The notes beneath the pieces were generated by a model. It was not told where the DNA came from and did not search any database. It was given only the letters and a program-made list of their open reading frames with translations. From assembly GCA_009768925.2 (NCBI GenBank), contig VHIT02000022.1, positions 1 through 53,337 of the forward strand: a stretch of DNA of 53,337 nucleotides, read 5' to 3'. This DNA is from Cryptosporidium bovis. Taxonomy: Eukaryota; Apicomplexa; Conoidasida; Eucoccidiorida; Cryptosporidiidae. The number at the start of each line of letters is the position of its first letter. The first letter of the stretch is position 1. Positions 1-11,956 of this stretch are shown one piece after another. Position numbers and translations under genes: made by a program.

Positions 1-46
1 TCCATTTTTACATATTTACAAACTTCACACTGTGCAATCTACCTAA
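1..46 (-). repeat. 46-bp subtelomeric element next to the telomeric tract
   Basis: These 46 bases are identical by eye to 4730-4775 (same orientation) and to the reverse complement of 3588-3633. The element ends in CTACCTAA, so its last bases run straight into the CCTAAA hexamers that follow. In the other two copies the same edge is followed by unique sequence. It is the outer tip of the 314-bp arms described at 3588 and 4775; only this tip lies inside the window, so a further arm with its own gene may lie to the left of base 1. Strand is given relative to the arm at 3588. Confidence 0.85.
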
Positions 47-184
47 ACCTAAACCTAAACCTAAACTAACCTAAAACCTAAACCTAAACCTAAACCCTAA
101 AACCTAAAAACCTAAAACCTAAACCTAAACCTAAACTAAACCTAAAACCTAAACCTAAACTAACCCTAAACCTAAAACCCTAAT
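42..184. repeat. Telomeric CCTAAA repeat tract, degenerate
   Basis: About 23 units of CCTAAA occur, mixed with CCTAAAA, CCTAAAAA, CCCTAAA and short CTAA units. TTTAGG is the reported Cryptosporidium telomere hexamer, and the C-rich strand reading inward is what the left end of a chromosome should show. The tract is short and variant-rich, and 41 non-telomeric bases precede it. It is therefore either the inner edge of a telomere with an odd first 46 bases, or an interstitial telomere-like tract. Confidence 0.85.
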
Positions 185-1880
185 TTAAAAGTATAATATA
201 TGTTATAAGAAACTAAAGAAAAACAAACTTTCTTGTAGAGACCAGGTAGTCATCGCTATGATGTATGCAAATCTTATAAATAAAGACCATTTTAATATGT
301 AATAAATTATATAAGCATTATTTTAAATTCATAGAAATAATGTGAATGTTTCATATCATAAATAACATGAAAAGTGATTTATAAACGCAAGGATTAAATT
401 ATATAGTTTTAGAAAATCATTATCGCGAAAAATAAGAATTTTACTATAAAGGGTGTTACATATTAAAAAAATTTAATAGAAAAATAATAATTTGTAACTT
501 AGAACTTGATTAATATGAAAGAGTTAATAAATTAAGAAATGTAAAAAATAGTGATGAAAGAATGATCAAATAATGAAAATAACTACTCAGATGAAATAGA
601 AATTAGGTCTAAACATAATTATGAAGTTTATGATAATTTAAATTGTCCAAATGATTCAGAAGACAAAACTAAAGGTGATTAAATATAGGGTCATTAGACT
701 CAACAAAGAAAATTGTTTCAAATCAATAAATACATTGTTATTTTAACAAGTAATACAGCAAATAAGAAAGTCAAAAGAAAGTGTTATATTTACCTACCAG
801 CTTGATTTGCACTAATAATGATCTTTTGCTAAATAATTGAAAACAAATAACTATCATTTTATTTTTTTAGAAATCTGTAATGAGACAAAATTCTTGTATT
901 TTCAATGACATTTAAATTACATTATCATCGAAATTTTTCATTTACCTTTTCTATATATTAACTAAATTTCAAATAAATAAAAATGATTTAGAAAGTTTGA
1001 AATTTTTAAAAAAAATTAAACTAGATAAACATAACTACTTGTCAAATTAGAAGAAAAAGAAGATAAACGGCCATTTATAAATAAAAAATTACAGGTGATT
1101 GTTTTAATGTGTATTTTTTAATTGAATGATCTATTTATTTTAGGTAAATTGAAACGAGAAAAGACAATTACAGGAATTTTACAGTATTCTACAAGTTACC
1201 ATATCCAGTTACTCATAAAACAAAAGTAATTGTATTAAACTTTGAGAAAAAATAACGATCTACTATAAATAATGGTTAATCTGTTTAAATAATAAAACCT
1301 CAATAAAAAAAATACTGTGTTATCACTTACATTTAACTATAATCCAAGTAACTCGATATCCTCATATTAAGTAGTGCTAAATGAATATATAGTACATACT
1401 GAATGTTAATATTATTGTTTCTTTTAAAGAAAAATACTGTAAATATACACAAAAGTAATGTTAATACTAGTTTCTATGATAATAAAAATGTATAAGGTAT
1501 TTGCCCTAAGTGGTATGAAAAATAAATATAAATCTACTGAATTATTAAGATAAAACGAGAATTATATCAGTAAATATAATATAATATACTTGTTACCTTT
1601 AATTGCATTTTTTACACTAAGAAAAATTTAGTTTGCGGTATGTTATAAATTTACTATAATTGGTATTTAAAAAAGGATCAAGTAAATTCTATTTTGAAGT
1701 TAAAAATATTAATTTATTATTATTTTTTCCTATTTTTACTTGTTTTACATTCATATTTAAAAACCAAAACTAATTGTTTACATCTCAAATTAATATATAA
1801 AATTATTATAAATACACATTAAACGATTAAGATATATGATTCGACATTTAAATGCATTATCCACATTTTTTTAGATAAAA
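185..1880. other. Subtelomeric AT-rich stretch, no supported gene
   Basis: Nearly 1.7 kb with dense stops in all frames. The only coding-like piece is 566-682, a 38-residue open run rich in Asn, Asp and Glu with no start codon. It has the composition of the neighbouring secreted-protein genes and may be a remnant. Another weak piece lies near 1141-1225. Nothing was recognised as an RNA gene. Confidence 0.5.
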
Positions 1881-2909
1881 ATGAAATTCCTCAATGTACT
1901 TTTTATTATTTTAAGCCTCTTAAATTTAATTAACAGTATTATGGGTGATATTCATCCAAAAAATCTGTTTTTGGTTGAAGTAAATGAAAACTATGAAAAT
2001 AATGAAAACATTGGAAATAGACTATTTTTAATGGTTGATAATAACGGTATTTTAACACCAAATTATTCAATAGAAGCTTCATGTAATAGTGAAATCAATT
2101 ATTTTATAGATATTATTAATAAAAATATTATCAGCCTTCGAATTATTTGTGCTGGAACATATATAGTAAATAACTTAAATGGCGTTGTTTTTTTAAGATT
2201 TTCAGATAATGTGTTTGAACTAAATAATATGGCTTTAAAAAAGGAACTATATTTTGATAGAAATTTTGAAAACAAAATATTTGTATTTCGAAAATATAGT
2301 AACATATATGAAATTGAAAATATTCCTAAAGTATTACAAAATTTTGACTTTAATTTATTACCAAAAAACTATAATATAATTGGAGATTCTATATACATAA
2401 AATATATAATAGAAGTGAAATTAATTGGACTAATTGATAATTCTAACAATGAACTAAGGGATATCGATACGAAAAATAACAACATCAGAAAAGTAAGCAA
2501 TGACTATGAAATAATTAAAATTGATATTAAAGATCCAACATATCTAGTTTTTTTCGCAAAAAAAAGATACTACAATAGTATATATATTGCAGTACCAATA
2601 TTTCATTTCACGAGTGTCTGTTACAACAAGGAAAACTATACAATAACATTTAATTGCAATGATGATTTAAGTAACACTGAAACAAGTTATCTGTTAAATA
2701 GTGGAATATATAATAATAAGGGAATAAAGGTGGTCACTAATAAAATATATTCCAATAGAATTATTTCTACTGAAGATATTAACTATTTGAAAAGTATAAT
2801 TAGTATAAAGTTCGGTATTAGCAATGAAACAAATATATATCAAAATGAAAAGGAAAACTATTATTCAGTAGCAGAAAGAATGATAATAATAAAAAACATC
2901 GATATATAA
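1881..2909 (+). CDS. Secreted hypothetical protein, 342 aa
   Basis: Single-exon gene, not recognised as any family. Residues 1-19 (MKFLNVLFIILSLLNLINS) form a clear signal peptide with a hydrophobic core and a small residue at the likely cut site. The rest has no membrane span, so secretion is inferred. It is rich in Asn, Ile, Lys and Tyr, has a few scattered Cys, and has NxS/T sequons (NYS near residue 56, NYT near 252, NET near 314). The start is the first ATG, preceded by A-rich sequence typical here. Its place between the telomeric tract and an inverted repeat of small secreted proteins suggests a lineage-specific effector- or surface-type gene, but no function can be assigned. A broken, similarly composed stretch follows at 2998. 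Confidence 0.75.
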   Translation: MKFLNVLFIILSLLNLINSIMGDIHPKNLFLVEVNENYENNENIGNRLFLMVDNNGILTPNYSIEASCNSEINYFIDIINKNIISLRIICAGTYIVNNLNGVVFLRFSDNVFELNNMALKKELYFDRNFENKIFVFRKYSNIYEIENIPKVLQNFDFNLLPKNYNIIGDSIYIKYIIEVKLIGLIDNSNNELRDIDTKNNNIRKVSNDYEIIKIDIKDPTYLVFFAKKRYYNSIYIAVPIFHFTSVCYNKENYTITFNCNDDLSNTETSYLLNSGIYNNKGIKVVTNKIYSNRIISTEDINYLKSIISIKFGISNETNIYQNEKENYYSVAERMIIIKNIDI

Positions 2910-2997
2910 AATATAATTAAGGAGAATAATAGTATTTATTAATTACTTTTGTTGAAATATTCATAGCTGATGTGTTAATCGCAATGTTTCAAATATA

Positions 2998-3430
2998 ATG
3001 TTAGATAACGAGAATGATACTGTTAACAATGTTTTATTTGCGAATTTGAATAACTCGAGTAATGAAAATATGGAGGCAATAGGTAACATTAATTTTAATT
3101 GAAAAAATTCATATTTGAATAACATTATCAATGATAACAACTCCAATATTTACAAATATTACGGATATATAATAAAACTTGATTATTATGATAACTATAT
3201 TTATGATCTTAACATCAAAGGAAAACCAAGAACATATCAGAATGTTAAAATAATTAAATATATAGAAGATGAGTTGAAATAATTAATTTGACAAATATAG
3301 ACGAATTTAGTTAAAATAAGAATATAGAAACGAGACATTATAACAATTAGATCATTGAAGCTACAAGTAAAATTTCTTATTCAGTAAATTCTATAGGAAA
3401 CAATTTTACAAATACCAACTTAAGTCGTTA
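2998..3430 (+). pseudogene. Degenerate Asn-rich coding remnant
   Basis: From the ATG at 2998 a 34-codon frame ends in TGA at 3100-3102, then stays open in the same frame for 59 more codons to TAA at 3280-3282. A further coding-like run continues in another frame from 3291 to 3429 with internal stops at 3312 and 3348. The reading is Asn-, Ile- and Tyr-rich like the intact gene at 1881. I read it as a decayed relative of the subtelomeric secreted genes. The likeness is one of composition and style; I cannot show a firm alignment. Confidence 0.45.
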
Positions 3431-3587
3431 ATAATAGCACAAATAGTTTATGACTAATTTTCTTAATTAATATATTAATTTGTTAGACAGTAGATTGTTT
3501 CTACTTATTCTGATATAGTATTTAAAAATATAGATGGATATATGTAATCATTATACAATGCAAAAACTTTAATTGTTGAAATGTTTG

Positions 3588-3901
3588 TTAGGTAGATTGC
3601 ACAGTGTGAAGTTTGTAAATATGTAAAAATGGAATGAATGAATAAATCATTATTAAAATTTTATGGATTTATTTGAATAATAAGAATTATTAAAATAATT
3701 CTTAATAAAAAAGGATAGAATTTTTTTTAATAGTGTTGAAGTAAATTGGAATTGTATTAAAAAAAATTGTTAAAAATGAAAGTATTTAATATTTTAAAGT
3801 GTTTGATATCACTAATTATATGTATGTTATTTTTGAGCAAAAACGATGAAAGCAATTTAATTGAGAATTCGTTACTTAAATTAAGAAAACCAAAGTGCCC
3901 A
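3588..3901 (+). repeat. Left arm of a 314-bp perfect inverted repeat
   Basis: Bases 3588-3901 match the reverse complement of 4462-4775 without a mismatch or gap that I can find by eye. The arm holds the 46-bp element (3588-3633), an AT-rich leader with a hairpin-forming palindrome at 3681-3704 (11-bp stem), and codons 1-42 of the small secreted protein gene. Identity stops at the codon after the first mature Cys-Pro. The arms being more alike than the gene halves they lead into points to recent duplication or gene conversion. Confidence 0.9.
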
Positions 3902-4054
3902 CAACTCAGTAAAGAAGATAGAAAGAGTCTTGAAAGGCAGTGGAAAGAATTGCAAAGTGACTTGGGTAACTTTAAAATGCAAAGGAATGATAGGAAAATT
4001 AGAGAGACGGAAGAAAAATTACAAAGGGTTAAACAGCGTTTGTGCAAGGATTAA
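3776..4054 (+). CDS. Small secreted Cys-pair protein, copy A, 92 aa
   Basis: Starts at ATG 3776. Residues 1-24 form a signal peptide (MKVFNILKCLISLIICMLFL and following). The mature part has one Cys in KPKCP near residue 41 and one in QRLCKD at the very C-terminus. Between them lies a charged, probably helical stretch rich in Lys, Arg, Glu and Gln. A helical hairpin or helix closed by a Cys-Cys bond is a reasonable guess. The copy at 4309-4587 on the other strand has the same first 42 residues, then differs at most positions but keeps both Cys, the SLERQ motif and the final QRLC. Not recognised as a named family. Confidence 0.8.
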   Translation: MKVFNILKCLISLIICMLFLSKNDESNLIENSLLKLRKPKCPQLSKEDRKSLERQWKELQSDLGNFKMQRNDRKIRETEEKLQRVKQRLCKD

Positions 4055-4308
4055 TAAATTATTATTTACACAGTTAACAAAACGGAATAATTGAAATAAA
4101 ACTTATCTGTAATATTATTCATCAATAATGAGAGTATAGAAATAAATTTATGGTAAATAATTTAACGGTTTACTAATACTGATGCTTACATTTAGATTAA
4201 GTAACTTAAGAATCAGTTTTACCCGAGTTATCTACTTTGTGAAATTCTGTACATTTATTTCAATATTAAATGTACTATCATGAATAAACACATTTACGTA
4301 TTTGTAGT

Positions 4309-4587
4309 TTATGGTCTACATAGTCTCTGTCTGATTTTTCCAATATCACCAGTTAATCTTTCTATCTTATTTCTATCACCACTTAATTGTGCTTGACCAA
4401 GTTGATCTTGCTTTATTTTCAACTGCCTTTCAAGACTTGTTTTATCACTACTACTGAGTTTTGGGCACTTTGGTTTTCTTAATTTAAGTAACGAATTCTC
4501 AATTAAATTGCTTTCATCGTTTTTGCTCAAAAATAACATACATATAATTAGTGATATCAAACACTTTAAAATATTAAATACTTTCAT
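4309..4587 (-). CDS. Small secreted Cys-pair protein, copy B, 92 aa
   Basis: Inverted partner of the gene at 3776, starting at the ATG whose first base is 4587. Residues 1-42 are the same as copy A, including the signal peptide, because the DNA lies in the perfect repeat arm. The mature half differs: it is Gln-, Gly- and Asp-rich where copy A is Lys- and Glu-rich, yet it keeps KPKCP, SLERQ, a central helix-like stretch and the terminal QRLC-R-P. Length is exactly conserved at 92 residues. The two genes converge, 254 bp apart (4055-4308), with no other feature seen in that gap. Confidence 0.8.
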   Translation of the reverse strand: MKVFNILKCLISLIICMLFLSKNDESNLIENSLLKLRKPKCPKLSSSDKTSLERQLKIKQDQLGQAQLSGDRNKIERLTGDIGKIRQRLCRP

Positions 4588-4775
4588 TTTTAACAATTTT
4601 TTTTAATACAATTCCAATTTACTTCAACACTATTAAAAAAAATTCTATCCTTTTTTATTAAGAATTATTTTAATAATTCTTATTATTCAAATAAATCCAT
4701 AAAATTTTAATAATGATTTATTCATTCATTCCATTTTTACATATTTACAAACTTCACACTGTGCAATCTACCTAA
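4462..4775 (-). repeat. Right arm of the 314-bp perfect inverted repeat
   Basis: Reverse complement of 3588-3901, leading into the gene on the minus strand. Its outer edge is the 46-bp element 4730-4775 that also lies next to the telomeric tract at 1-46. Immediately beyond it, at 4776, the base composition jumps to a GC-richer patch. Confidence 0.9.
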
Positions 4776-5746
4776 CGTCGGTCGATTACACGACACACAA
4801 GTATCGCACCCGTGCAGGTATGCATACCGGTGAATGGATGGATTACCAAAATCACTAGATATCAATAAAGCATTGAATAAAAAAGTGTGTATATCACATA
4901 TAAATTTAAATACGTCACCAATAAATATTCAAAGATAAATTTAGTTAAAGTACAAATTCATAGTTAATAATTATTATATATATTGCAATTGATCATATTT
5001 CTTCATACAACCTTTGCTTACAGTTATACATTTATCCTTTAAATAGATATCTTTTTAAACTTTTCTACACATCAAAAAAATAAAATATGCTAATTTCTTA
5101 TAAGACATATTCAAACAGTTTAGGATAATAAGAAATACATTCTATTTTGTTACTATAAACCAAGAAATACAGGTTTGTTTTTGATAATAAAGTAATTTAT
5201 GACTAATTAGATAAGTAATCTTTTGAATGTGTTTATTTAATTAAATTACAATGGCTTAACCTATTTGCCTTCAACAACTTTATCTATAATCCATGTGCAA
5301 CTGAGTTTCTAATGTACAGTTAACATAAATACTGTCACCTTAATTTAAAACAAACTTTTATTGTAAGCGGCATTTGCGTGCGAATAGTGTGCATGGTAAT
5401 GGTCACAATGTGACATTAAAACAATTAATAATAAATACTATAATTTAATTTAAAAAGAAATAAATTTACTGTTTTTGATTTTTTTTATAATTAAATTAAA
5501 ATAGCTTTATATCAGAATGAAATATAGGTATTATTTATTATACGGATAGTGAATAGGTTCATCAAAGATAACAGTGAATACATAGAATAACAATGCGGAT
5601 AGCAAAAAAATAATTGATACCGGGATAAAATTGAGTATATGAACTCAAAACAGTTATTATACATATATCTTACAGAATTTAATTTAATTAGATATATAAA
5701 AAATAAATTTTAAGGTAACTTAGGTGTATAGTAAAAAACAATAAAA
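4776..5746. other. Intergenic stretch with a GC-richer edge
   Basis: Bases 4776-4850 are clearly richer in GC than their surroundings and contain the palindrome at 4817-4828. The rest, up to the gene at 5747, is AT-rich with stops in all frames. No gene or RNA was recognised. The junction at 4775/4776 is where the subtelomeric repeat unit ends. Confidence 0.5.
4817..4828. promoter_or_regulatory. 12-bp perfect palindrome GGTATGCATACC
   Basis: A perfect palindrome with the TGCAT core seen in many ApiAP2 binding sites. It lies 42 bp outside the inverted repeat and about 920 bp upstream of the gene at 5747, so a promoter role for a nearby gene is not established. Confidence 0.35.
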
Positions 5747-7066
5747 ATGGGTGGAGGTGGAAGTTCTGCAGCAGAAACAACAACAACATCTACATCTACT
5801 ACAACTACAACTACAACGACCTCAACAACAACAACCACGACAACTACAACTACAACAACTTCAACAACAACAACAACAACGACAACGACTAAAATGCCGA
5901 CGAGTATGATAACGAGTAAATTTATGATACCGACAGATAGAGGGGATATAAGTCAAGGGGGTAGTTTGTCATTTATATTACCACTATATACATTGAATGA
6001 GAACAACTTAAAGGTTGAGTTAATGAATGATAATAACGTAACGATAGTTTCGACAGAGTTTATGAAATGTTGCGTGAAACTAATGAACATAGTAACTGGC
6101 TACTTTGATAAGTTTACATATCCATCAAATTGGGAGTTATTAACATCAATGAATCTAACATTAGCGTGGACAACAACAATGATTTACTTGATAGTATCTT
6201 CAACACTGGTACCTCTGGCAGGAATAATAACGTCAGGTAATACACTGCCTTCAACAGTGAGATTAATAGACAGTAAAGAGCAATTAATATCTACAACATG
6301 GAATTTCAATCCGTTTTTTGACAATATAATTTCAAACTCGTGCACTTTAACCGGTTCAGGAAGCAAATGTAAAAGCGGAAAAGCAATTTTATCTTTGACT
6401 AAGCCATTTCAACCTGAGAGTAACTACTTGAGATATTCATTTATATCACCACCAGATTACTATTACCCAATAACAATATCGATATACTCATCGGCATCAT
6501 TGTTGGCAACTATTAACTTTTATAAGACAACAATAGAATTAAAGTCGAGTTCAAATACAGTTACAATTACTATTCCAACCCCAGTTGAAGAAGGACAGTG
6601 GATAGCTGGAGATATATTTACGCTATCTAAAAGTGGATATAAATATCTAAAAGATAATTCTTCGTCTTATAGTTGCCTATTTATTGTCTCTAGCAGTTGC
6701 TTTACAACACAAGCCTCTCAGAGTTGGAAACAGCAAGATGAGAAACTCGACATTTTAAGATATGCATATATAAAAGGTACTGAATATAGAACTGTTTCAA
6801 GCTATGTCGATTCAGAAACTGGAGAAGTTGTTGGTAAAACAGAAACATCTTCTGAGAGCGATGAAGTATATCTTCACTTATCGTACAGCAATAATATTGT
6901 GGCTGGTATTTCAATTCCTCCATCCTCTATTACAGAACTTAGAATTACAGGCACACAAAATCTGGTGCCCCTATGTTATTGGAGATTTTCTGTTGGGACA
7001 ACTCCGTCTATAAATGTATCCTCCTCTAAATTAAATGGTTTGTTATCTCAAATAAAGGCTTCGTGA
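5747..7066 (+). CDS. Poly-Thr protein with MGxxxS N-terminus, 439 aa
   Basis: Single exon; an in-frame stop at 5732 fixes the ATG at 5747. The protein starts MGGGGSS, fitting the N-myristoylation pattern (Gly2, Ser6), and has no signal peptide. Residues 11-48 are an almost pure Thr run broken by four Ser. From about residue 68 (GGSLSFILP) to the end it aligns with the gene at 7702. Shared landmarks in order are GSLSFILP, KCC-KL, C-x-L followed by CKS, YLRY-F, a GDIF-LSK block, a Cys pair, ILRYAY-K, a LSY-N-IVA-like strand, CYWR--VG-x-PS and a final KL. Family not recognised. A Thr tract in a surface protein would be an O-glycosylation target, but the N-terminus argues for a cytosolic, membrane-anchored protein. 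Confidence 0.8.
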   Translation: MGGGGSSAAETTTTSTSTTTTTTTTSTTTTTTTTTTTTSTTTTTTTTTKMPTSMITSKFMIPTDRGDISQGGSLSFILPLYTLNENNLKVELMNDNNVTIVSTEFMKCCVKLMNIVTGYFDKFTYPSNWELLTSMNLTLAWTTTMIYLIVSSTLVPLAGIITSGNTLPSTVRLIDSKEQLISTTWNFNPFFDNIISNSCTLTGSGSKCKSGKAILSLTKPFQPESNYLRYSFISPPDYYYPITISIYSSASLLATINFYKTTIELKSSSNTVTITIPTPVEEGQWIAGDIFTLSKSGYKYLKDNSSSYSCLFIVSSSCFTTQASQSWKQQDEKLDILRYAYIKGTEYRTVSSYVDSETGEVVGKTETSSESDEVYLHLSYSNNIVAGISIPPSSITELRITGTQNLVPLCYWRFSVGTTPSINVSSSKLNGLLSQIKAS

Positions 7067-7701
7067 TAAATGAATATTAATAAAAGGTTTCATCCGACAT
7101 TATCTATTTAAAACGCATTTAGATTTAAAGTATCAATAGTAAATAAGATAGAAAATCAATTATCGTACACTTGCCAATATTTATACTGTTAATATAAAAA
7201 GGGTTTAGTTATTAATTTTTTTAGTTTTCACAACTATGATATCTAATGATATCATATTTACCTCATTAAATTGTCGACTCGTGTGAAATAGTGACAAAAA
7301 CATTATATTAAAAAGATAAATGTTGTTAATCTATATTTAAAATTTAGTATTGTTTATTTGTTTTTTCCTTCTTATATTCTACTTAGTATTTTAAATTTTT
7401 ATCATTTCTTTAGACACAATTTGCATGCAACTCTGAGACATTTCCGTATTACACAAATTGGTAACTAAAATGATGAAATCGTGATGCAAAACATACTGCA
7501 AAATTTATTTAGTAAATTAAATTATTTATTACTAATGGTCTTCACAAACTAAATTGTTACATTATCATCTGGAGCAGTTCCTTTCTTAACTCTTATTATA
7601 AATAAATATAATAATTATTACGTTATATTCAATTAGAGTGTAAACAGAAAGATTACAAAAATAAATTATTACTTGTAAGTTTGAAAGTTAATAATTAAAA
7701 A
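7067..7701. other. Intergenic region between the two paralogues
   Basis: AT-rich, with no open frame of note. It holds a perfect TGCATGCA at 7422-7429, about 270 bp before the next gene. Nothing else was seen. Confidence 0.5.
7422..7429. promoter_or_regulatory. TGCATGCA, candidate ApiAP2 site
   Basis: Exact 8-bp palindrome upstream of the gene at 7702. TGCATGCA is a reported binding sequence of an ApiAP2 domain conserved between Plasmodium and Cryptosporidium. Only three exact copies were found in the window (also 15457 and 36202), all intergenic. Confidence 0.4.
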
Positions 7702-9545
7702 ATGGGATCTGAAGTCAGCTGTCAATTCAATGGCATTGGTGATATATGTTATAATCAAGCAGTTGTGTATAATACTAGTATTCCAGAATTACTAAACAAC
7801 TACTATATATTTAACAATGAAGTTTCAAAAGTGAAAAATAAAGAAGAGTACGTTTTTTCATGTCTTGATGAAAATGAGGAGGTAGCTGGTAGTTTAGTTT
7901 GTGATTTAAGTACAAATGCAACAATTTCTTGTGGTAAAAGTAAGTTTAGATAAAAAAATGTTTAACCACCTAGATAATTCAATTTACAAATAAAATTAGA
8001 AATGTTGAGTTTTAAGCACAATAACAGCTGTTCTTTTGGTTTTATGTTTAGAACAAACGAAACATTAATTTTTCAGGTAAGTTTGAACTATAAAAATATA
8101 TTTCAATTTAGATAAGAACGAATTAATTATTATTTTAGAGCAATGACTTAAATAAACCAATTATTTCATTTCCATCAATTTCCAATCAGGTTAAATTATA
8201 CTCTACATATTACGATTTAGAAGGCGAAGATAGATGGGCACTTAGAGAAGGATATAAGGGTATGTTTGAAAAAAAAATCAATAAATCAATACATTATAAG
8301 CGAATAATTTAATTTCATACAGGAGGTGAATTCGAATCATTTGTTATTGAAACATTTGATTTAAAAGATGAATGGAGTGAAGGATATTTAATTGTTAAAA
8401 ATTCGAGCTTAATTGAATTCCCACCTATTGATAAAAACAGAAATGATTATATTCACAACAATAATGGTAGTTTATCATTTATTCTTCCTATCGATGCAGT
8501 AAATAATGGAAATGTACAACTAAGCCTTTTAAATGAAGAAGATAGTCCAATAATTACCTTAGTTATCTCAAAATGTTGCTCTAAATTACTAGATGTTAAA
8601 AACAATATAATGGACAAACACTCATTTATATCTGATAACATTCATGCTCAATCAATGAATTTAACAATATCTTGGATATCATCAATATTATTTTTATATG
8701 AGTCGACAAGTATGAAACCATTGTCTGTATTAACAAGCATCAGTGAAATTATACCTACTAAAGCAAAATTGGAAGATAAAAGTAATAATAATGAAATAAC
8801 AACAGACTGGTATCTTAAACAATACTCGAATTCTATTGGTCCAAATTATTGCGTTCTAACGAGTGATAATACATGTAAAAGCTCTGAAATTAATATTTCT
8901 GGAAATCTATATAGCGACTCTCAATATTTAAGATATGGATTTATGTTTTCATCAATATTAGCACCATATGTTATGGATATTAAAAAAAATTCCAATAAAT
9001 TAGTAAGTATTATATTTAAACAAAATTCAATCATTATTTCCAGTAGTTCAGAAACCATTAATATTATTCTAAAAGATCAACTTGAAGATGGTGATTGGGT
9101 TTCTGGAGATATATTCATTTTATCAAAAAATTTACATAGAGCTGTCATCGATGATGCTTATATTACTTGCAAGGAATACAGCGATTCATGCTTAATCAGT
9201 CAAAATAATAATTGGATGAGTAAAATAAGTCTAGAATCGATACTCAGATATGCATATTTAAAAAAGGAAGCCGTTATTTACGAAATTAACGAAGGTGAAG
9301 TTGATTCTTCTATTGAGAGTCAAATTAAAGATGAATATTATATATATATTTCATACAAAAACTGTATTATTGCAAAATTAGGTACTAGTGATAATTACAT
9401 TAACAACGTGCAAGTTACAAATTCAGAGAATGTCGCTACACTTATCTATTGGAGAATTAATATTGGCATATCGCCTTCTGTTGCGGTGCCTTCAGATAAA
9501 TTAACTACAATAAAAGATTTTATCAATAATAACTCTACGCAATAA
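7702..9545 (+). CDS. MGxxxSC paralogue of the poly-Thr protein, four exons, 552 aa
   Basis: Exons 7702-7939, 8000-8076, 8139-8259 and 8323-9545 join in frame (phases 1, 0, 1) with GT-AG borders: GTAAGT, GTAAGT and GTATGT donors and TTAG, TTAG and CATACAG acceptors. The protein starts MGSEVSCQ: Gly2 and Ser6 fit N-myristoylation, and Cys7 is a likely palmitoylation partner, the dual-acylation pattern of membrane-anchored apicomplexan proteins. Exons 1-3 and the start of exon 4 (about 185 residues) have no counterpart in the gene at 5747. Homology begins at NGSLSFILP in exon 4 and continues to the C-terminus, with the KCC motif, GDIF-LSK, ILRYAYLKK and YWR-N-G-SPS conserved. It is a tandem duplicate with an unlike N-terminal half. 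Molecular function is unknown. Confidence 0.8.
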
Positions 9546-9915
9546 AAAGAGTTACTTGTGTGTTGAAAGATACATCAATTATCATTTAAGATAATTATTT
9601 CAATTATATCTACTACCACTATTGTTATCATTATTTATTTGACAAAATATTGTTTGGGGGATATTTATATTCATATTTTTCCTTTTTTTGTGAATAATAC
9701 CACATAGATACATACACATGCATATTTTTGCTCGCTGTAACATCTTTTTTCACATAATTCTATTTATTTCCAATATTTTTTTTTCTAAAATATTACAGGA
9801 GAGGGGTGAGGGGGGGAGAGAGGAAGTCGGAAACGAACAATGAAAGTGCACATTGAGAAAAAAAAAACACTAATATAGTCAATTATATTATTTAAACAAA
9901 ATAAAAATAAAGAAA
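9546..9915. other. Intergenic region with a G-rich purine tract
   Basis: Mostly AT-rich, but 9797-9826 is an almost pure purine run containing GGGG and GGGGGGG blocks, very unusual in this sequence. It lies about 90-120 bp before the ATG7 start and could be a promoter element or a two-layer G-quadruplex. Nothing else was seen. Confidence 0.5.
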
Positions 9916-11956
9916 ATGAATAATAATTTTGAATTTAATATAATATCGGAATTACCTAAGGTGCAAATTGAACTAGGGTTTTGGAAAACTTCTAGTAATC
10001 TAAAATATAATGAACTCAAACTTCAAAATGAATATATTGATATCTTTGGTTTCTATAATTCACAATATAATATTGTTAGAATAAGAGAAGAGTCTATTAA
10101 ATCAAACAATAAATTGCACGAGTCAGGTATGTCATTGTGAATTTAATAATAATTATAATATTATTGTTAAAATATTACTATTTGTTAATTATTTTAAAGT
10201 TTAAATTACTTATATATTTATTAACTTTGTTATTCCAATAAACGAACTAAAAATAAATTGTTTAGAATACAATAATTTGATTAAAGGAAAATTAAGATTA
10301 TTAAATTCTTTGCATGAAATTCTACATCTAAATAAAGATATTGAATCAAATCCTCAAATACACTTCTCTACAAATATTGAAACAATAAATAATTGGTTTA
10401 GTGAAATAAATAACAAAAAACATGAACATTATCCATTTTCTTTCTTACTGTTAATATATTTTGATTTTAAAAAACAGATAGCATATTATAGTATTTGTTT
10501 CTCAAATATAAATAAAGTTTTTGAATTTAAAATACTAAATAATAGTGATAGTAATAACAATCCAAGTACATCTGATTTTTATGATATTATAATACTACCA
10601 ATTACTCATAATGATAAAAATAATAATTCTTCTTTAAATTTAGAATCAATTAAAAATTCAAAACTATGCCGTGATATTTTAATTAAATTAAAAAAAGATA
10701 TCTCAAAATATAGTAATAATGTAGTTAATTGTCCCTGGTTCTTCATTACAATACTTTCATACATACTAATTGATAAAGATAATATAACTGATGTCATTTC
10801 CATTAAACCTAATTTTATTAAACAAAGTAATTCTATGATTAATAATAAAGCTGAAATTAATGACGATAAATTACTTTCATTTGATTTAAGAACACATTTT
10901 GACTCATATACAATACAACAAAAAATAAATAATATCAACATTGATCTTATAAGATGGAGAATAGCCCCCGAGTTTGACCCTAATAAGTTTAAAAATTTGA
11001 GGTTCTTACTTATTGGCAGTGGCACTTTAGGATGCAGTGTTTCAAGAAATTTGATCGGGTGGGGAATAAGAAATATTACTCTTGTTGATAACTCTGAAGT
11101 TAGTTTAAATAACCCATCTAGACAATGTTTATTTACTTTTGAAGATGCTAAATTAAAAAAAAATAAAGCATCTGCTGCTATTGAAAGGTTAAGATATATT
11201 TGTCCCGATTTAATGGGTCATGATTTACCTTTTGATGTGCCTATCCTTAACGATCCTACAATCAGTGATAATGAATTCATACAAAAATGTGAAGAATTGA
11301 AAGAAATAATACAAGATTCTGATGTTATACTTTTACTTACAGATACAAAAGAATCTAGACTTATTCCAACTATTCTTACTTCATTTATTAATAGGCATCA
11401 CAGAAATAAAGACAATCCGATTCTTTGTATTACAGTTGGTCTTGGGTTTGATTCTTTTGTAGTCACTAGAAATACATTTATTGAAGATAAAGTAACATCT
11501 GATCAAAACGACTCTAACGGCTGTTATTTTTGTGGTGACCTATCTGTTAATTCAAAAACTGACCTTTTTGATATTCCCATTGATCAACAATGTTCAGTTG
11601 TTAGAATTGGAAATAGTTATATTGCATCTTCTATTGCAGTTGAGCTTATCATTAATTTATCTCAAAGTAATGGATATTGGAATTCAACTCATTGTGATAA
11701 TGTTGAAAGTATTTTAGGATCTTATCCACAATGCATTCGTGGATGTCTAAATGGTTTTTCCATTAAAAATTCCTCCATTCAAAGAAACAATAATTGTATT
11801 GCTTGTTCTAACAAAATTTCAGATGAAATGTTAAATAACGAAAAAAATTTTTTATGCCAAATATTCAACGATCCTAAACAACTTGAAACCTTTTCTGGAT
11901 TAGACAAATATAAACAGCATATTGAAAATAATATTAATATAATTAGCGACTTCTAA
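9916..11956 (+). CDS. ATG7: ATG7, E1-like activating enzyme for ATG8/ATG12
   Basis: Two exons, 9916-10126 and 10266-11956, give 633 aa; the join (phase 1, GTATGT donor, TTTAG acceptor) restores the conserved N-terminal block. ATG7 activates the ubiquitin-like proteins ATG8 and ATG12 with ATP and passes them to ATG3 and ATG10. The N-terminal ATG7-specific domain is visible (ELGFWK near residue 20, then LIKGKLRLLN and the FLLLIYFDFKKQ block). The adenylation domain has the nucleotide motif GSGTLGCSVSRNLIGWG at about 321-337, VDNSEVSLNNPSRQ after it, and the Cys pairs CYFC and CIAC. The catalytic Cys is residue 513 in DQQCSVVR, matching the family's DQQCTV. The C-terminus keeps the IRG and IACS segments. 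It is slightly shorter than yeast and human forms. The stop is 9 bp from the stop of the convergent gene. Confidence 0.93.

Follow-up and report, generated by a model that had tools for sequence, protein, structure and literature searches.

Identical fronts and diverged rears in a convergent subtelomeric gene pair of Cryptosporidium bovis: a probable case of gene conversion

Gene conversion between inverted repeats occurs in segmental duplications and palindromes. Among genes near the chromosome ends of Cryptosporidium, those encoding secreted proteins are suspected host-adaptation factors, and short-read assemblies handle the ends poorly (PMC11130048, PMC6532270). The MEDLE, SKSR and FLGN families are described as secreted and largely subtelomeric, with copy number or sequence varying between species (PMC6532270, PMC11130048). 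The telomeric proteins Cops-1 and Chos-1 are near-telomeric, secreted, basic and divergent, with no relatives found outside the genus (PMC3586618). A locus that resembles each of these systems in some respects is described here. It lies near one end of the window, i.e., the whole 53,337-nt contig of C. bovis that was analysed (contig C25 of a searched genome of 9,064,136 bases in 43 contigs). A nested-PCR primer published for gp60 of C. bovis (PMC8539439) has a single exact match in this genome, in keeping with that species. Two 92-aa genes, A and B, face each other there; as in segmental duplications and palindromes, the inverted copies are identical along part of their length, non-coding bases included, and as in the secreted families, the genes lie near a chromosome end and their products are probably secreted. 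Nothing on this gene pair was found among the titles and abstract beginnings listed in literature searches. Judged from its sequence, the arrangement is best read as a real, new and small example of subtelomeric gene conversion, ordinary in kind.

The inverted repeat and its two genes

The original prediction of a perfect inverted repeat is correct: the two arms are identical at all 314 bases (Table 1), which in our judgement is far beyond chance. Each arm consists of 188 bp of upstream sequence followed by codons 1-42 of a 92-aa ORF, and the two ORFs converge on a 254-bp spacer. Just beyond the 314 bp, the outer base G (3587/4776) is also common to both arms. Upstream of 3587 there is no homology between the arms; homologous but diverged sequence adjoins the identical tract at its 3' end only. 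Inward, the first mismatch falls at base 3902. If mismatches are allowed, the arms extend to 369 nt with 96% identity (3587-3955 and 4408-4776), and all 14 mismatches are confined to the last 54 nt (P 2e-12 if uniform). The identity had been predicted to end abruptly after codon 42. The exact match does end at that point, but codons 43-60 are intermediate and there is no straight drop to background.

Table 1. Features at the telomeric end of the window
Feature	Positions	Strand	Basis
46 bases that repeat the outer end of the arm beyond the telomeric array; probably a fold-back chimera of the assembly	1..46	-	100% identical to 3588-3633 in inverted and to 4730-4775 in direct orientation
Degenerate CCTAAA telomeric array, terminal orientation	47..183		18-base repeat pattern
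Left arm: the 188 bp before gene A and its codons 1-42	3588..3901	+	314/314 vs 4775-4462
Gene A, 92 aa; two-Cys helical hairpin, probably secreted	3776..4054	+	ORF; C. xiaoi ortholog RS030_273678 (84%)
Intermediate stratum, codons 43-60 of gene A	3902..3955	+	14 mismatches to B; 10/10 residues in common keep their codon
Gene B, 92 aa, convergent paralog	4309..4587	-	ORF; relatives found are gene A and its C. xiaoi ortholog only
Right arm: gene B up to codon 42, with the sequence before it	4462..4775	-	314/314 vs left arm

The outer ends of both arms are formed by the telomere-like sequence GTTAGG (3587-3592 and 4771-4776), and the short tail at the contig tip joins at the same place. In 8.8 kb of this region TTAGG or CCTAA is present only eight times, counting both arm ends. 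A 75-bp patch of 51% GC (4776-4850) adjoins the right arm on its outside, in surroundings of ~20-26% GC. A second copy of this patch was not found in the genome, and one exact 24-mer taken from it had no match in a collection of prokaryote genomes.

Residues 1-42 of A and B, including C41, are all identical. In the rear halves (residues 43-92) 18 residues are in common, among them the SLERQ motif and the QRLC motif with C90; none of 20000 shuffles of B's rear reached this number. Thus the mature halves retain, as predicted, the 92-aa length, the two Cys and both motifs, with 18 of the 50 rear residues in common. A hydrophobic stretch at about residues 1-21 of both proteins is a putative signal peptide, and A and B are probably secreted. 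The shared 188-bp upstream sequence is, from its position alone, a putative promoter, and the two genes may share their expression. The products from residue 22 have calculated values of ~8.7 kDa and pI 9.7 for A, and ~8.1 kDa and pI 10.0 for B. AlphaFold2 models built from 3-row alignments (mean pLDDT 75.1 and 73.7) contain the same two helices, 46-69 and 72-89, in A and B. In the modelled hairpin C41 precedes the first helix and C90 follows the second, and a disulfide may join the two Cys. Pfam gave two weak matches for A under the cut-off (E 0.085 and 0.087) and none for B. A fold search against the PDB returned 101 matches at E up to 10 but none at 0.001 (best E 0.83), and a sequence search of the PDB with a profile gave no match.

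The subtelomeric position proposed for the pair is supported by the array at 47-183, which is terminally oriented like those of six other contig ends. The left arm begins 3.4 kb inward of it. The 18-base repeat pattern has 49 exact matches, all of them at seven contig ends and in the orientation of terminal telomeres; the Cryptosporidium telomere repeat is given as GGTTTA in PMC13125899. The exact pattern marks these seven ends as compared with the 16 expected for eight chromosomes. When window positions 190-9800 were compared with eight stretches, seven from the six other telomeric contigs and one from contig C13, no subtelomere sequence in common was found at better than E 0.03. Inside six of those stretches the only repeats of at least 60 bp were a tail on contig C1, described below, and one direct repeat of ~201 bp and 88% identity at positions 1-370 of C36, the start of a small telomeric contig.

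Several other genes lie around the pair. A 342-aa ORF at 1881-2909 has a hydrophobic start, and the sole relative listed for it is a C. xiaoi protein with 89% identity. No paralogs of this gene were found in the genome at E up to 1, and a decayed copy between 2910 and 3700 was considered but is unsupported, the best tblastn E being only 0.048. On the other side, 5747-7066 and 8610-9545 are neighbouring paralogous genes with 32% identity across 314 columns. The first of these has a Thr-rich mucin-like start (under the Pfam cut-off). C. hominis and C. tyzzeri have relatives of it; the matches listed (7988 candidates scored) comprise three proteins, none from C. xiaoi. Residues 27-368 of the ORF at 10835-11956 match ATG7 sequences of solved structure (E 1.6e-57); in 4gsk_A, a chain of 615 residues, the match covers only residues 289-614. 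The ATG8 pathway is reduced in Cryptosporidium, and this ORF is worth attention for that reason.

Relative age of the front and rear halves

The ortholog of gene A in C. xiaoi allows the two halves to be dated relative to a species split. In C. xiaoi, gene A and the 342-aa gene each have an ortholog; the two carry consecutive locus tags (RS030_273677/273678) on contigs of the same length, and the locus therefore appears syntenic. An ortholog of B was not found in C. xiaoi by protein search. In codons 1-42 A and B differ at 0/42 residues, and each differs from C. xiaoi at 4/42. In codons 43-92 the differences are 32/50 between A and B, 11/50 between A and C. xiaoi, and 30/50 between B and C. 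xiaoi; A thus matches the C. xiaoi rear at 39/50 residues and B at 20/50. The front and the rear have conflicting histories in these protein-level counts from three sequences with a single outgroup ortholog: A and B are closest in the front, A and C. xiaoi in the rear. The front residues alone (0/42 vs 4/42) are not significant by themselves (P 0.12). At the base level, the minimum of 4 changes in 126 bases between A and C. xiaoi would lead one to expect ~10 changes in 314 bases, as compared with 0 between the arms (crude Poisson P 5e-5).

Silent positions separate the rear into two strata. In codons 61-92 the pS between A and B is 0.89 and 6 of the 8 residues in common use changed codons, whereas none of the 10 residues in common in codons 43-60 does (Fisher P 0.0015). 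Codons 43-60, with their intermediate divergence, point to a longer tract of earlier date. Since the silent sites in codons 61-92 are saturated, the rears are taken to be old rather than fast. For B's rear the age rests on this saturation (8/32 residues in common), because its ortholog was not found in C. xiaoi. The conflict with the C. xiaoi ortholog and the silent saturation together bear out the original prediction that the fronts are newly homogenised and the rears old.

A further proposal, that selection drives the variation of the payloads, finds no support in the substitution counts. Between A and B, dN is 0.73 and dS 1.5 (near-saturated) in codons 43-92, a ratio of ~0.5. The excess of replacement changes in codons 43-60 is not significant (P 0.33), and neither is the higher rate of change in the rear than in the front when A is compared with C. 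xiaoi (11/50 vs 4/42, P 0.16).

Copy number and the tail at the contig tip

The 188-bp leader (3588-3775) was found at three places in the 43 contigs, the two arms and bases 1-46. In protein searches of the genome with whole A, whole B and the 42-residue front, the best candidates, which were the ones scored, gave A and B themselves and a single weak match on C13. This match was to A but not to B (E 0.009, 39%), lies in an 816-aa frame and was dropped as a likely coiled-coil chance match. Additional payloads had been suggested as possible at other chromosome ends; two full copies on one contig were found among the 43 contigs, seven ends of which are telomere-marked. A variable effector family would have several members at several chromosome ends; that was not seen in these contigs, although further copies may lie at ends that are missing or unmarked.

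The copy at 1-46 was rejected as a genuine third copy; it lies outside a terminally oriented array, and the same pattern is seen on C1. At the right end of C1 (585429-585620), 192 bases running from the outer edge of the array are an exact inverted copy of a site ~6.7 kb inside that contig. The junction overlaps are 5-6 nt, TTAGG for the tail of the window and GGTTTA for that of C1. When the seven telomeric ends were inspected by eye, identifiable tails were seen in two (C1 and C25); about five odd bases stand at the tip of C43, and the remaining four ends have no tail. Multiple displacement amplification (MDA) is usable for samples with few Cryptosporidium oocysts (PMC11130048), and in an E. 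coli study more than 85% of MDA chimeras were inverted and more than 70% primed on matches of 2-21 nt (PMC1855051). The two tails resemble such chimeras in being inverted, in deriving from a few kb away and in their short overlaps. Because it lies beyond the expected end of the chromosome, because C1 has the same defect and because MDA chimeras provide a precedent, the segment 1-46 is read as a fold-back artefact; it presumably joins exactly at the outer edge of the arm because TTAGG sits there. Both tails are probable amplification chimeras retained in the assembly. Fold-back tails beyond telomeric arrays are a checkable assembly defect, and one that could pass for extra gene copies.

Origin of the pair and comparison with known systems

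In the explanation that we consider likely, A and B are old convergent subtelomeric paralogs, and non-reciprocal recombination later than the divergence from C. xiaoi transferred the front of one, likely A, to the other. The starting point would be an old inverted pair near the chromosome end. After the split, gene conversion or template switching between the inverted copies would have carried codons 1-42 of one gene, together with its upstream region, onto the other. This tract would have its outer end at GTTAGG (3587), the limit of homology, and its inner end at codon 42-45, with the drop in similarity, and a second, older tract would probably have reached as far as codon 60; the front was perhaps copied more than once. 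Since the non-coding bases are as identical as the coding ones, copying is required, not selection on the protein. The direction was probably from A to B, because the common front is like the C. xiaoi ortholog of A at 38/42 residues and B's rear at only 20/50. The limits of the tract, outward at the end of homology and inward where homology fades, appear to be as expected of conversion between inverted paralogs.

Fold-back errors in the assembly count against conversion: they affect two telomeric ends, including that of this very contig, where the error starts from the arm's own outer edge. A chimeric right arm, produced during assembly or whole-genome amplification, could have put the A front on B's rear or overwritten a diverged true B front; the 46-base and 192-base tails favor such an event, and their TTAGG and GGTTTA overlaps fit MDA chimeras (PMC1855051). 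However, the consensus would need two switches, one in frame within homologous coding sequence and one back to the unique flank at 4777, and a plain fold-back would give no diverged, open, Cys-conserving rear half. A, though not B, is also independently supported by C. xiaoi, and we regard an artefact as quite unlikely. The identical fronts, and the failure to find a B ortholog in C. xiaoi, would also fit an origin of B as a recent duplicate of gene A whose rear half then changed very fast. This is highly improbable given silent positions that are saturated in codons 61-92 (pS 0.89) vs 0 changes in the 314 adjacent bases, and given that all the arm mismatches crowd into the last 54 of 369 nt, at the P of 2e-12 quoted above for a uniform distribution.

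Two readings would add a function or a trigger to the conversion. Conversion may have been kept by selection because the upstream region and signal sequence stay equal while the mature payloads diversify. The conversion limit just before the predicted hairpin would suit such an expression-and-export module, as would the two nested strata, which suggest repeated conversion, and the report that the most divergent genes between two compared Cryptosporidium species are mostly subtelomeric and secretory (PMC6532270). But only two full copies were found in the 43 contigs, dN/dS is not above 1, and the tract end is equally explained by fading homology; selection for a module is thus an unlikely addition. 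It is rather improbable, too, that the two genes form a subtelomeric cassette whose upstream and export sequences are reset by conversion again and again while the secreted hairpins drift apart, the process being seeded by telomere-primed copying. The seeding is suggested by the telomere-like GTTAGG at the outer limit of both arms where TTAGG/CCTAA is otherwise scarce.

Neither the MEDLE nor the SKSR string, which we take from the family names to be the motifs, is present in A or B. The pair also differs from the MEDLE, SKSR and FLGN families in having only two copies of 92 aa (PMC6532270, PMC11130048). Cops-1 and Chos-1 are ~50 kDa, Ser-rich proteins with internal repeats and a pI above 10 (as characterized in PMC3586618), whereas A and B are ~8-9 kDa with pI 9.7 and 10.0 and without repeats, and do not belong with them. 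If isolates were to show rears varying under fixed fronts, the pair would provide a compact model for the diversification of secreted proteins. MDA inverted chimeras as described in PMC1855051 account for the tails but leave the two diverged rear halves and the two-sided tract of A and B unexplained. Unlike the conversion known from segmental duplications and palindromes, that proposed here involves very short arms and a tract that ends inside coding sequence. For the chromosome ends of Cryptosporidium, the pair would provide an example of gene conversion that is relatively dated and resolved to the base.
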